Part shown: positions 535 through 6,584 of the stretch, one piece after another
How the letters are laid out: each line of letters opens with the position of its first letter
Position numbering within the stretch: the first letter of the stretch is position 1
Program-made: the position numbers and the translations under genes
Notes under the pieces: model-generated
What the model saw: only the letters and a program-made list of their open reading frames with translations
What the model was told of the DNA's origin: nothing
The model's database searches: none
Assembly (NCBI RefSeq): GCF_945956965.1
Contig: NZ_CAMFJS010000004.1
Location: 1-64,000 of the forward strand
Direction of reading: 5' to 3'
From: an uncultured Roseateles sp.
Lineage (GTDB): Bacteria > Pseudomonadota > Gammaproteobacteria > Burkholderiales > Burkholderiaceae_C
Length of the DNA: 64,000 nucleotides

Positions 535-3362
535 GTGCGCCGTTTTGCCTTGCGAATCAAGCACTTACGCGAGTATTGTACTCGCAGTCTAGCCTGCTAG
601 GAAGGCTAGTGGCTACCCACCCTACCTCGGCCTGGCAAAAGGCTGCGACTCCGAAAGGAGCGAGGGAAAGCAGCATGGTGGGAAAAGGCGGCAGCGGGGG
701 GAGAGGATCTACCCGCCGGCCGTCAAGCCAAGTCTCTTATGGTCAAGCCTGTATTGGTTGAACCACAAACCTGAGTTGAGTTGGGATCTCACTGGCGAAA
801 CGATCCTTGAGACGCCAGGCCGGGTAGTGGATGGGGCGAAATTAGAACACCCGTCCACCTAGCCTCCCCGGAACGTGTGCAGTCTGCACATCCAAAGGTT
901 GAGTGTGGGACCTGTCAGAGACGTTTCTTGTTTGCGAGGAAATGCGGGATGCCCTAAGTTGGTCAGAGGCCTTGGCTGATGACCAATATGGGTACGGAGA
1001 CTTCATAGTACCCAATGTCGGGCCGTAATGGCTGCGGCAACCGGTAACCAATCCGGTCTCGAACCTTGGCATAAGTGGGTGGCGACGCACACGAAAACTG
1101 AGGGGATGAGGGGGAAGGGAGTCAGTTAGCTAACCCCTTGAGCAAGCCGAACGGAGGGCAGTCAGTGCTGACCGATCGTACAAGTACCGCCCTCAAGGGT
1201 GCGGCAAAAGCTGTAGTCAATGGTTCCCGGGCAAAGAAGCTGATGAAGATCATGGTGAACAACCAGGATCTATGGTTCGCAGCCTACGCTGGCATCGCTT
1301 CCAACAAAGGCGCGCTAACGCCTGGGGTGAGCGGGGACACGCTGGATGGTTTCAGCCTTCGGCGGGTTGAAAAACTCATCGATGCCATCCGCAACGGCGA
1401 CTACAGGCCAACTCCAGTGCGACGGATCCATATCCCGAAGGATCGCCTCAACCCGAAAGGGAAGAAGCGGCCATTAGGGATCCCGAGCGGAGACGACAAG
1501 ATCGTGCAAGGGGTCATGCGAATGATCCTGGAGAGCATCTACGAACCTCAGTTCAGCCCATGCTCTCACGGCTTCCGGCCGAATCGGTCGTGTCACTCTG
1601 CGTTGGACATGGTCCATGCCGAGTGGAAAAGCACAACGTGGGTTTGCGAAGTAGACATCAAAGGTTTCTTCGACAACATCAACCATGACAAGCTGCTCGA
1701 AATCCTTAGAAGGAGGATCGACGACGAGGGGTTCATTCGCCTTGTTGAACGTTTCCTTCGGGCTGGCTACATGGAAGATTGGAAGCTGAGCGTCACCTAC
1801 AGCGGAACACCGCAGGGCGGGATCATTTCCCCGATCCTGGCGAACATCTACCTGCATGAGCTCGACGAGTTCATGCATAAGAAGATGGAAGCCTTCAACG
1901 TGGGTGAAAGAAGGCGCGAGAACCCGAGATACCAAAGACTGCGAGTCGAGATCTACAAGCGGCAGATGAAGATCAAGCGAGCGCAAGCTCAGCTTGTTCA
2001 AGACGATGCTGGCGCAGTGGAACGCCTCAAAGAGGAAATCGCAGTTCGAAAGGCGCGGCATGCGTCGCTAACGGTTCCGTGGTCTAACCCGGAACACGAG
2101 CGGAGTCGCAGTCAGGTGAGAGCGGCAGAAATAAGCCTCAAGCGTCTCGTTGCAAGACGGGAGTCGCTGCCGGCGAAGATCCAGTTGCTGCAAGCCGAGA
2201 TTGCATTGCTGCGCCTAGAGAAACAAAGTCTACCAAGCGTCGATATGCAGGACTCTGAGTACCGTCGTCTTCGGTACATCCGCTACGCCGATGACTTCCT
2301 CATCGGAGTGGTGGCATCGAAGGCGGAGGCCAAAGAGATCATGAGCGAGGTGAGCGCTTTCGTAGAAGGCGAACTCAAGCTTGAGATCTCAGCGGAGAAG
2401 TCCCGTCTTGGGGCTCTCGAGGATGGATGCAATTTTCTGGGGTACGAGCTAAGCCATCAGAAAGGTGGGGAACGACGAGTCAAGGCGGTGGTGCACGTGA
2501 GTGATGAGGATCGAAAGGTCCACGCCACGAAACGTGTCATCAACGGCCAGATTCGGTTGCAACCCAGCTGGAAGAAACTGGATCGTTTCGTCAGGGAGCG
2601 ACGCTACGGCGCGCTGGACCAATTAAGGACTCCGTCAGTGGGGAAGAGAACGTACATGCTCCAACAGAGCGAGTACGAGATCGTCTCCCAGTTCAACGCG
2701 GAATTGCGCGGCCTAGCGAACTACTACAACCGGTGCCCGAAGTACCACCTCTCGACGGTGGAATGGCTGTGGCAACGCAGCCTGGCCAAAACGCTTGGGG
2801 CGAAGTGGGGGGTAACGTCCCCCACTGCGTTCAAGCGACTACGGCAAATGGACGGCAAACTGGCACTGAAGTACCACGACAGGCAAGGGAGGGAACGGCT
2901 GTTGCAGGTCTACCGTCTGGCAGACCGCGCGCCCACACCCTCCTACATGCCGAAAGAGCGCGAGGTCTACCGACCGAGCGTGGACGACAGGCCGAACACC
3001 TTCGTCTTCAAAGCGGAGCGATCCGAGTTGCTCAATCGGCTGATGGCCAGTGAATGCGAGTACTGCGCGGATACGAAAGGACCCTTCGAGGTCCATCATG
3101 TTCGGAAGATGAAAGACCTGGATAAGGGGATGGAACCGTGGAAACGCATGATGATCGCCAGGCGGCGTAAAACGCTGATCCTGTGTGAGCCATGCCACGA
3201 CCAGCTCCACGCCGGAAAACTTCCGGACTGGAGAGGCCGAGAGCCTGAACCGTCAAAGCTAATGGAGAGCCGGATGCATTGAAAGGTGCACGTCCGGTTC
3301 GGTGGGGGGGTAACGGTTGTCTCACAATTGCTAGGCTGCGAGCATCACGTACCCTACCCAAC
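535..3362 (+). mobile_element. Group II intron (ribozyme plus RT/maturase ORF)
   Basis: 5' GTGCG at 535; IBS1 GTTCTAA (528-534) perfectly complementary to TTAGAAC (842-848, candidate EBS1); domain V-like GAGCCGGATGCATTGAAAGGTGCACGTCCGGTTC (3267-3300); domain VI ending CCCTACCCAAC with candidate branch A at -7 (3356) and AY 3' end (3362). Confidence 0.85.
1138..3282 (+). CDS. Group II intron-encoded reverse transcriptase/maturase with HNH endonuclease domain
   Basis: RT motifs (RPLGIPS, GFRPNRSCHSAL, GTPQGGIISPILANIYL, YADDFLIG), maturase region, C-terminal HNH-like CEYC...EVHH...CEPCHDQLH. Confidence 0.95.
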   Translation: MSKPNGGQSVLTDRTSTALKGAAKAVVNGSRAKKLMKIMVNNQDLWFAAYAGIASNKGALTPGVSGDTLDGFSLRRVEKLIDAIRNGDYRPTPVRRIHIPKDRLNPKGKKRPLGIPSGDDKIVQGVMRMILESIYEPQFSPCSHGFRPNRSCHSALDMVHAEWKSTTWVCEVDIKGFFDNINHDKLLEILRRRIDDEGFIRLVERFLRAGYMEDWKLSVTYSGTPQGGIISPILANIYLHELDEFMHKKMEAFNVGERRRENPRYQRLRVEIYKRQMKIKRAQAQLVQDDAGAVERLKEEIAVRKARHASLTVPWSNPEHERSRSQVRAAEISLKRLVARRESLPAKIQLLQAEIALLRLEKQSLPSVDMQDSEYRRLRYIRYADDFLIGVVASKAEAKEIMSEVSAFVEGELKLEISAEKSRLGALEDGCNFLGYELSHQKGGERRVKAVVHVSDEDRKVHATKRVINGQIRLQPSWKKLDRFVRERRYGALDQLRTPSVGKRTYMLQQSEYEIVSQFNAELRGLANYYNRCPKYHLSTVEWLWQRSLAKTLGAKWGVTSPTAFKRLRQMDGKLALKYHDRQGRERLLQVYRLADRAPTPSYMPKEREVYRPSVDDRPNTFVFKAERSELLNRLMASECEYCADTKGPFEVHHVRKMKDLDKGMEPWKRMMIARRRKTLILCEPCHDQLHAGKLPDWRGREPEPSKLMESRMH

Positions 3363-3390
3363 AAAGTACTTGGCAGTTAGTTGTCAACAA

Positions 3391-3424
3391 AAAGCCCGCG
3401 GCCTAATAGCTGCGGGCTTTTTTT
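3391..3424 (+). terminator. Rho-independent terminator, probably the original ssb terminator displaced by the intron
   Basis: AAAGCCCGC...GCGGGCTTT stem followed by T-run. Confidence 0.8.
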
Positions 3425-3529
3425 ATTGTTTACATCGCATCTCTTGTTCGGTGTCGGGGTTGGGTATCGCTTGCCCCCAAGATGCGCAAACAACAGAACC
3501 CATACCGGATTCGCTTGCTCCTTCTTGAT

Positions 3530-3742
3530 TCAGGTGAGCGCTTTCGGTTGATCGTCGAGTGGGCCGCAGGTGCCCAATACCCCCAAGTCAAATCTAGGCT
3601 GGCTGCAGCCGTTCGGACTCGGCCCCAGTAGGTCAGCAAAGTGCCCCGTTGCCGTCATTGGAAGCCGACCTCCGGCAGCCAATCTGCGACCCAAAGCTGC
3701 CATTCCCAGAGCACGACACATCGCCCTATTGCAGTCGCTCAA
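3530..3742 (-). CDS. Small hypothetical ORF immediately following attC (possible cassette ORF or debris)
   Basis: 70-aa ORF on the minus strand starting directly after the attC R' core; no recognised family. Confidence 0.25.
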   Translation of the reverse strand: MSDCNRAMCRALGMAALGRRLAAGGRLPMTATGHFADLLGPSPNGCSQPRFDLGVLGTCGPLDDQPKALT

Positions 3743-3796
3743 CGTGACGATTAACCGGTGCGCGTCAGCGCGTCCGGGTTGAATAAAAGGTTAGGC
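3737..3796 (-). repeat. attC: attC recombination site (integron cassette site), minus-strand orientation
   Basis: Minus strand: R'' GCCTAAC, 5-nt spacer CTTTT, L'' ATT[C]AACC (extrahelical C), GC-rich loop, L' GGTTAAT, 6-nt spacer CGTCAC, R' GTTGAGC; matches canonical attC layout. Confidence 0.75.
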
Positions 3797-4087
3797 ACCT
3801 AGCTCAAGGCCAGTTCTTGATCGCCCAAGAACACGAGAAGTCCGGCCTGAACGGCGCCGACATTGCCGGCGGCATGAGGTTCTGCATGAGTGCGGGCCTC
3901 AAGTGGCAGCGAAGGGGCCGCGGCCCGTGTAGTGGTAGCTTGATGGCGCCCAACATGGTTTCCGTGTCGCCCCCAAAAGGCTAGCGGACTACACCTCAGT
4001 AAACCAAAAATTGTTTGAGCACCTATTAAACCTAGTCAGCCCCTACTGCTCTAGGCAGCGATCACACTGACATACTAGTTACAGTAT

Positions 4088-5020
4088 TTACTGTGGCGGC
4101 CCAACGAGCGCAGAAACGTCTCCCCTGCGGAAGGCACGCTCCATCTCGGAAGCCAAATTCAGGATCCTCTTACTCTCTGATTCACTGAAACGGCTTGACA
4201 ACGAATCATACGAATCATCGCACGGACCACCAGTAAAGCAACGGAACTGAAGCCGGACATCTTTCGCCTCCATGCCGGCGATGGATGAAACCCTCATTTC
4301 GGCGATATCAAAGGCGGCGGAGGATTCCTCTCTGGAATAATTCTGAGCCTGTCCCCCAATCTTCAAATTGCTCAAAATATAGTTTTTCGCGGCAAAAATC
4401 AATCCTTGCCGCGCCAATTCGTCCACTGCCGCTAAATTTTCCGATTTAGACTTAATCATCGATAAATCTAGGACATTTATTGCCTCAACATATTTGGCAG
4501 CAAATTTATCTCCTTCTGGAGGCTCCGCGAACGCTGCGAGAGCTTCGCCTGATATCTGGCTGCAATAGACCGTCAATCGATCTTTCGCCTTGAGCCGCAT
4601 TTGATGATTTGTACTGCTGGTGGATTTTAACAATGGATCAGAAGCGGGTGATCGCATTGCATTCAGCCCCGCGCAAGGACGTAGTAAGCGAACTCCCGCG
4701 CCAAATGCCCCCGGCTGTCTAGATTCCCTTAGTGCGACAACCTCCCTGTAAGCATCTGAGCTGGAATACCCCTTAAACCAATCTGATTTTATGGGATTCG
4801 CTGGCGCAGCTTTACTGTACTGAGCGTTGGGCTCAGTCTCTATCGTAGAAGATGGCGACGACTGCGCTGGCAACTCAACGACGGCGGGGGGAACGGAAAC
4901 GTTTGATTGCACAGGTGGGGCGCTTTCCTCAGTGTCGGCGAACAACCGGAAAACTAACACACCTAACAAGGTCACGCCCAAAAAAGTGACCGCAAAAAAC
5001 CTAAATCTAGAATTCATCAT
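4088..5020 (-). CDS. Hypothetical membrane-anchored/secreted protein (unknown family)
   Basis: N-terminal hydrophobic segment RFRFFAVTFLGVTLLGVLVFRLF; start overlaps upstream stop (ATGATGA). Confidence 0.7.
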   Translation of the reverse strand: MMNSRFRFFAVTFLGVTLLGVLVFRLFADTEESAPPVQSNVSVPPAVVELPAQSSPSSTIETEPNAQYSKAAPANPIKSDWFKGYSSSDAYREVVALRESRQPGAFGAGVRLLRPCAGLNAMRSPASDPLLKSTSSTNHQMRLKAKDRLTVYCSQISGEALAAFAEPPEGDKFAAKYVEAINVLDLSMIKSKSENLAAVDELARQGLIFAAKNYILSNLKIGGQAQNYSREESSAAFDIAEMRVSSIAGMEAKDVRLQFRCFTGGPCDDSYDSLSSRFSESESKRILNLASEMERAFRRGDVSALVGPPQ

Positions 5021-5796
5021 TTGCACGGGGTATTTTGCGGGTTTGGAATTCCATCCAGGAATCGCCCCAAGGATGTTACAACAGGCTGTTGACCATAATC
5101 GACCGAATAAATTATAAATCGAACAGTCTGGCCGACCGGATACGCCACATCCACTCGCATTCCCGCCCGTAACACACTCGTGTTTCCTGCATATGTCTGG
5201 CCAATAGAGTCTCGAGCCAGATAGTAGTCATATATCATATCTGCATCGGGCGACCGAACTCTTTCATTGACAATCGGCGTCTTCACACACTTGTCAAGAA
5301 GAGGGAACAAAAGTTCAACATTATCCGTTATGGCAGCCACGACTACAGCGCCGACGGCTTTAGAACTTTCTTCAGCAAGTACGGGTAGAAGTAGGTTATA
5401 GGTCCGACATTCTTCGTTGATACACAAGCCAGTATTCCCAAGTTCCCAGGCATAGTCAAATCGTTTGACATAGACAGTAACCCTTTCCAGTTCAACGGTC
5501 GGCGAATCACCGACAGCCACATAACCAAGCGATTCCATATAGTCCCGCGCGTCCCCCCCGCCCGGATTGGACCCATCGCCATTACATGGTTGGTCTGGGT
5601 CGACGCAAATGGGGTTGTATAGCAGGCGCTCCTGATTTTTGCTGGGGGCCTTCACCACATTCCCTGTCAATCCGACCCAACGTTTTACATAAGGAGTATT
5701 TGGAAAGCTCTCTTTTCCCACTAATTGCCCGGATGAAGCCGCAAATGAGTGAAGGAGGAACGCAAGGCCAGCAAAAATTTTACAAATATCACTCAT
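5017..5796 (-). CDS. Hypothetical secreted protein (unknown family)
   Basis: Signal-peptide-like start MSDICKIFAGLAFLLHSFAASSG; several Cys residues; overlaps the next ORF; ORF can extend to 5853. Confidence 0.7.
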   Translation of the reverse strand: MSDICKIFAGLAFLLHSFAASSGQLVGKESFPNTPYVKRWVGLTGNVVKAPSKNQERLLYNPICVDPDQPCNGDGSNPGGGDARDYMESLGYVAVGDSPTVELERVTVYVKRFDYAWELGNTGLCINEECRTYNLLLPVLAEESSKAVGAVVVAAITDNVELLFPLLDKCVKTPIVNERVRSPDADMIYDYYLARDSIGQTYAGNTSVLRAGMRVDVAYPVGQTVRFIIYSVDYGQQPVVTSLGRFLDGIPNPQNTPCK

Positions 5797-6172
5797 GCCA
5801 TCCCTTTTTGAATATTTTAAAATCGATAGATCGGAGGTCGTATGCATATACATCCCCGTGAACCCCGACGCGAAAGAACTATTGAAGTAAATGGCTACTG
5901 AACCTTAGTCAAATTGATGACAGTCGAGTAGCTTCTAACTACTATTTCAAAAGGTGTTGGGCGGGGCAAATCCCCCATTGTGGGGGTGCGGTAGATGTGA
6001 TCGAACCAATGGAACTTCACTCATATAACAACGCGCGCGTAGCATCTTTTTGAATTGAATGACACCTGTCAGAGCTGACAGGCGTTGTATTGCCTTGGCG
6101 ACGCGACACGCGGCACGGCGACACCAGTTCTAGATCTGAGAGCTCTGGATGCCTAGCATTTTTTAAACAGAC

Positions 6173-6355
6173 GTGCGCGCCGGTGCTCCGCACACGCTGC
6201 GGCACTCGTTTGCAACCCACCTGCTGCAGCCCGGCTATGACATCCGAACGGTTCAAGAGCTATTCGGTCAATCGGGTGTCGCCACGACCATGATCTACTC
6301 CCATGTGCTGAAGGTCGTTGGAGGCGCGGTCAAGAGCTCTCTCGATTCGATGCGT
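6173..6355 (+). pseudogene. intI: C-terminal fragment of an integron integrase (IntI, tyrosine recombinase)
   Basis: [54 protein letters not shown] matches the IntI C-terminal signature; N-terminal part absent; expected GHSD box is GQSG. Confidence 0.85.
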
Positions 6356-6584
6356 TTCGCATTGAGTGCGTTCTGCTGGCTCGAAAGCAGACGGTGGGCA
6401 ATCACTGCTAACGGCCGAGGCTCAGGGGCAAGGTGCGCAGTCGGGCGACTGCTATGGGCACGGAACTGACCTACAGGCGTCAAGTACGAATAGCGACGGG
6501 CCTTTTTCATGGTCGGCGGTGGCCACGCGGCTACAGTGGTCAGCCCTGTAGCTCAGCCGGGCCAATGCCCGGGCCCGCCCTGCC

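Follow-up and report, generated by a model that had tools for sequence, protein, structure and literature searches.

The structure and polarity of attC sites have been described, and known sites span 57-142 nt (PMC2727003). Clusters of attC sites without an integron-integrase, termed CALIN in IntegronFinder, have been proposed to be degraded integrons; version 2 of that program by default needs two attC sites for a report, and single ones are admitted as possibly true (PMC9024848). One survey classed roughly a third of intI genes as pseudogenes (PMC2426708). Here we describe a locus, within a window of 64 kb (the whole stretch of DNA analysed), that very probably holds the remnant of a sedentary chromosomal integron, comprising one attC site, a scrap of the integrase IntI and two orphan genes. 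The remnant resembles a CALIN in having attC without a functional integrase, but it keeps a single attC site, fewer than the default two (PMC9024848), and its IntI scrap persists. As in previously described intI pseudogenes and pseudo-integrons (PMC2426708), a broken integrase lies beside integron sequence; unlike in those cases, nearly the whole gene is gone, with 56 of ~356 codons left. Where a complete integron has an intact intI, this locus has only the last 56 residues, and where a default CALIN has at least two attC sites, a covariance search of the 64 kb gave one match and no second attC up to E = 10.

The attC sites of sedentary chromosomal integrons in the family (for example G134 L051, G150 L053 and G301 L085) share one layout, R'', 5 nt, L'', apical part, L', 6 nt, R', with an extra base at an identical place in L'', invariant AAC/GTT in the R boxes and a C before GTT. 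The window site has all of these features, and it differs from the family sites in its low identity to them (at most 67%), an extra C in the apical stem, a mismatch between R'' and R' and a weak fold. The attC of aadA1 likewise has spacers of 5 and 6 nt and a single additional C in L''; the window site shares both with it, and the two show no homology in cargo. The parts of the window site are as follows.

3737-3796, minus strand (the cassette top strand): attC site, 60 nt, from covariance model R1 and the box detector
3796-3790, minus strand: R'' box, GCCTAAC
3789-3785, minus strand: R''-L'' spacer, CTTTT, 5 nt
3784-3777, minus strand: L'' box, ATT[C]AACC, with the extrahelical C at 3781
3776-3757, minus strand: apical part, CGGACGCGCTGACGCGCACC, 20 nt
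3756-3750, minus strand: L' box, GGTTAAT
3749-3744, minus strand: L'-R' spacer, CGTCAC, 6 nt
3743-3737, minus strand: R' box, GTTGAGC

Every box element quoted in the earlier note (R'' GCCTAAC, L'' ATTCAACC, L' GGTTAAT and R' GTTGAGC) was located on the minus strand at 3796-3737, in the order and on the strand given there. The ends of the site fit the attC motifs, RYYYAAC in R'' (GCCTAAC) and GTTRRRY in R' (GTTGAGC), and its length of 60 nt lies within the known range of 57-142 nt (PMC2727003). L'' and L' are complementary at seven of seven pairs, with C 3781 unpaired on the L'' side, and R'' and R' pair at six of seven positions (five Watson-Crick and one G.T), leaving one C.A mismatch. The apical stem is imperfect: one surplus C stays unpaired, and there is an internal loop. 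The unequal spacers of 5 and 6 nt are the same as in the family reference sites, and together with the single extra C in L'' they form the pattern of the family's attC sites, as the earlier note had proposed for attC sites at large. The structure and polarity of the site are also those described for attC sites (PMC2727003). Judged by its sequence, the stretch at 3737-3796 is a genuine integron attC, in the orientation and with the boxes listed above.

Two detection methods were applied. A box detector, which scores R- and L-box complementarity and spacing, placed the site at the top of the 64-kb window, at 14.5. One score of at least 14.5 turned up in 3,840 kb of single-strand Markov background, or about 0.03 per window. 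Reference attC sites were collected from stretches beside the integrases of family relatives, where 183 candidates were reduced to 48 non-redundant sites. Of these, 45 were cut back to a 60-nt core and gave a gap-free MAFFT alignment, from which the covariance model R1 was built; the window site was not among them. The covariance search proposed in the earlier note, carried out with this family model, returned a single match in the window, a full-length one of 25.3 bits (E = 4e-4), running from 3796 to 3737 on the minus strand. Searches of Rfam gave no match at the attC, either in a permissive search of 3300-6500 or at gathering scores over the whole window, where a group II intron was the only match. 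DNA-similarity searches found no copy of the site elsewhere in its own genome.

The genome does hold other R1 matches, at C2:222560-222619 (59.9 bits), C2:221658-221728 (51.4 bits), C44:540-644 (34.4 bits), C33:11009-11069 (28.8 bits) and C44:1234-1338 (28.5 bits), with a partial match at the end of C44 (19.1 bits). Those above 25 bits show attC boxes by eye. The window site ranks sixth genome-wide. All five matches above it have the appearance of genuine attC sites; below it come the contig-end partial and then a match of 15.7 bits. The genome search covered 150 of the 2,638 first-look candidates, and weaker sites may be missed. The sites at C2:221658-222619 (L111 7659-8620), C33:11009-11069 (L112) and C44:1-1341 (L113) have no integrase nearby. 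It is highly improbable, and we strongly disfavour the idea, that the arrangement in the window is a chance inverted repeat. The poor thermodynamic fold described below would suit such a repeat, but the E-value comes from a model built without the site, the expected number of such detector scores per window is small, the 96 kb of integron-free ssb-hydantoinase loci from relatives (12 stretches) hold no match over 15.5 bits, and the similarity of a flank in the congener G229 breaks exactly at the crossover point.

Folding gave a different picture of the site. For the bottom strand (the plus strand of the window), the free minimum of -9.9 kcal/mol is not the R/L hairpin, and the canonical pairing, at -6.5, costs 3.4 kcal/mol over that minimum, around the 96th percentile of the reference sites. 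Mean pair probability is 0.18 for the L box and 0.06 for the R box, and the L-box value lies below all 48 reference sites (range 0.37-0.99). Free DNA folding of both strands produced no canonical hairpin, and comparison with shuffled sequences was not significant (z = -1.76 and -1.05). The description of the site as structurally canonical thus stands for box order and spacing but not for the free fold of the bottom strand, and the fold that the earlier note had named as a test came out mixed, with complementary boxes but an unconstrained bottom-strand structure that departs from R/L pairing. The covariance model and the box order say attC, and the folding energy says weak or decaying; from these computed energies, the attC is probably weak or decaying. 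When R' was swapped for GTTGGGC, the heptamer at 3954-3948 with which the same cassette may begin, the computed energy gap fell from 3.4 to 0.9. This drop would fit a hybrid R' formed by integration beside a new neighbour, and is only suggestive.

The other parts of the locus are listed here.

3545-6492, no strand: whole remnant, bounded by sequence conserved in G303 (3383-3544, and from 6493 on)
3595-3645, minus strand: 51-bp non-coding module, 85-94% identical to copies in G229, G303 and G304
3645-3742, minus strand: flank beginning at the R' recombination point TTGAGC, 97% identical to the G229 flank
3804-3956, minus strand: 50-aa ORF ending 8 bp before R''
4088-5026, minus strand: orphan ORF of 312 aa with a hydrophobic N-terminus, low in GC and without relatives
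5017-5802, minus strand: orphan ORF of 261 aa from the ATG at 5802 (278 aa from the ATG at 5853), with a signal-peptide-like start
6185-6352, plus strand: 3' end of an integron integrase gene, coding for the last 56 residues, TIGR02249

The IntI fragment that had been placed near 6173 proved real: it matches TIGR02249 at positions 260-315 of 315 (E = 4.7e-23) and shares 84% amino acid identity with the end of the full 356-residue IntI of G301. DNA similarity to the intI regions of relatives extends past the fragment to 6471, and the locus lacks the 5' portion of intI, the expected place of attI. Because the fragment is on the plus strand, the lost 5' end and attI are expected at lower coordinates, with cassettes reading on the minus strand. 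The attC and both orphan ORFs do read on the minus strand, as expected for cassettes of a plus-strand intI, and the attC lies 2.4 kb from the fragment. The polarity proposed earlier is therefore right, with a plus-strand intI and minus-strand cassettes, the latter lying towards the missing N-terminal end of intI. The same note had placed the attC outside any annotated integron; it sits instead inside a degraded integron.

No intact intI was found in the genome's own 100%-complete assembly, in which the fragment is the only clearly integron-type integrase sequence. Two longer tyrosine recombinase genes, on contigs C1 and C11, also gave integrase-like matches; their open frames span 334 and 404 codons, and they score far below the cut-off of the integron-integrase family and are thus probably of Xer type. 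These data bear on whether the site might still be active in trans, through an integrase supplied by a mobile integron or through an intI that escaped assembly. A diverse range of attC sites is generally accepted by IntI enzymes, and the C44 array runs off the end of its contig, so that an intI could be missing from the assembly. Activity in trans is nevertheless very unlikely, given an assembly of this completeness with no other IntI and an L-box pairing weaker than that of every reference site.

The remnant lies between ssb and a hydantoinase gene. In G303, ssb, its terminator region and the hydantoinase gene occur in the same order, without the remnant and without the group II intron; the gap in that genome holds a 1,509-aa ORF in the remnant's place (L083 4733-9262, minus). 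Across the genus, where both genes are on one contig, the gap ranges from ~1 to 39 kb, and its cargo is unrelated among relatives. Among the 12 stretches sampled from congeners, none carries an intact integron at this locus. As the gap varies and these stretches hold no attC above 15.5 bits, we regard the locus as variable; the sequences give no sign that it was an ancestral integron site. Since no sampled congener has an intact integron here, the element may have arrived already broken.

The group II intron of the window (535 to an approximate 3' end at 3364, plus) carries a 714-aa RT/maturase-HNH ORF (1138-3282). It starts with GTGCG directly after the ssb stop, upstream of the ssb terminator, and G303 lacks it at this position. 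A case of a group II intron targeting attC was considered and dropped, as the intron follows the ssb stop and does not lie in the attC, and the G303 locus is without it.

The variable gap could instead be an insertion hotspot, in which a single cassette entered at a secondary site, or was carried in with other DNA, and came to neighbour the IntI fragment by coincidence. The unrelated cargo of relatives is compatible with such an origin, as are the isolated attC sites elsewhere in the genome (C33 and C2). We hold it to be unlikely, however, because the attC and the integrase fragment share the polarity of one integron only 2.4 kb apart, and because the flank in G229, too, has an attC and a broken intI as neighbours, arranged and oriented as here.

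To characterize the DNA between the attC and the integrase fragment, we examined its ORFs. Those at 5017-5802 and 4088-5026 overlap by 10 bp and, judged by eye, both look exported or membrane-anchored. Searches of Pfam, NCBIfam and PHROG gave no match for the 312-aa ORF, and no family match was found for the 261-aa ORF. Neither has relatives in 300 genomes of the order, and none were found for the 312-aa ORF in a wider collection of genome contigs. GC content in the ORF region is 46-52%, compared with ~67% in the flanking hydantoinase gene. Both ORFs are probable cassette cargo. The 50-aa ORF, with the R'-like heptamer GTTGGGC at 3954-3948, is tentatively a small cassette of ~215 bp. GTTRRRY heptamers occur seven times in the 2.4 kb, not clearly above chance, and for this reason a cassette 5' boundary drawn from R'-like heptamers is unsafe.

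A comparison with G229, of the same genus, revealed a recombination footprint. Positions 3645-3745 of the window are 97% identical over 101 bp to L084 7849-7948, and the same flank in G229 adjoins an attC at L084 7940-8005 (30.5 bits with R1). In a global alignment of the junctions, the attC sites and the sequence before them differ, and near-identity begins at TTGAGC and continues onward, with the caution that the preceding base is A in G229 and G in the window. Since the IntI cut in R' falls just before TTGAGC, this part of the box belongs to the neighbour. A shared flank that starts at TTGAGC beside different attC sites in two genomes therefore points to site-specific recombination. G229 also carries a broken intI (residues 1-199), placed and oriented relative to the flank and attC as the fragment is in the window. 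No plasmid records carrying the flank were found; among the matches listed, all plasmid matches to the whole region fall in the intI part. Beside the broken integron of G229 lie two adjoining ORFs of 1,357 and 212 aa (L084 2618-7326, minus); the larger may be an NTPase and the pair possibly defence genes, by eye only.

Next to the flank is the 51-bp module, which is probably, from its distribution, array-associated non-coding sequence. Copies (GGCACTTTGCTGACCTA...) occur in four genomes (window 3595-3645, L084 9472-9523, L086 3137-3188 and L087 7981-8031), near or away from attC sites, and in L084 the copy follows a weak attC-like element with R' GTTGAGC. The flank TTGAGC-GACTGCAATAGG and the 51-bp module could form a defined end module of this genus's integron arrays, to which IntI joined different attC sites, an idea that we regard as unlikely. 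If true, decayed arrays would keep a recognisable terminal signature.

The locus thus holds an attC, an IntI fragment, a shared polarity and a flank that is joined to a different attC in a congener. In the intact element, intI would have lain on the plus strand, with attI flanking its 5' end and minus-strand cassettes pointing away from it. While the integrase was present, it would have cleaved the folded bottom strand of the attC (the plus strand of the window) at the G/TT step of R', joining the cassettes to the flank beginning TTGAGC. A deletion, which we infer to be the cause, would then have removed attI and all intI codons except the last 56, leaving one attC, two orphan cassette-like genes and the non-coding flank. 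The site would now be inert, with no integrase and a weak fold.

The integron-remnant reading rests on the attC match, the IntI C-terminus, the flank shared with G229, the other attC sites of the genome that lack an intI, the full and broken elements of the genus, the low-GC orphan ORFs and the variable gap. Weighing against it are the single attC left, the non-canonical free fold and a cassette 5' boundary that cannot be fixed.

The family is rich in integrons: 160 of 301 genomes match the IntI fragment at E <= 1e-12, though some of the weaker matches may be to Xer-type recombinases. G301 has a full element, with ~17 attC matches and a 356-residue IntI, and broken intI genes are common elsewhere in the genus (G229, G299, G310 and G301), some other partials being cut by contig ends. 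In G299 (L043 15155-15651), intI lacks approximately residues 68-257, and the remainder matches the intact G301 IntI at 98-99% identity; provided that the assembly is correct, this would be a recent internal deletion.

Together, these sequence comparisons allow the window element to be readily explained as an end stage of integron decay. It is a new individual case of an ordinary kind, as the closest relatives carry many such elements at all stages of decay, and it opens no new question, since integrase loss with surviving attC has already been described (PMC9024848, PMC2426708). It does correct the annotation of a locus whose one attC and 56 intI codons default tools would probably miss. With the same flank attached to two different attC sites, the two congeners cleanly document site-specific recombination in the past, and the remnant illustrates how little of a chromosomal integron can persist and still be recognised.
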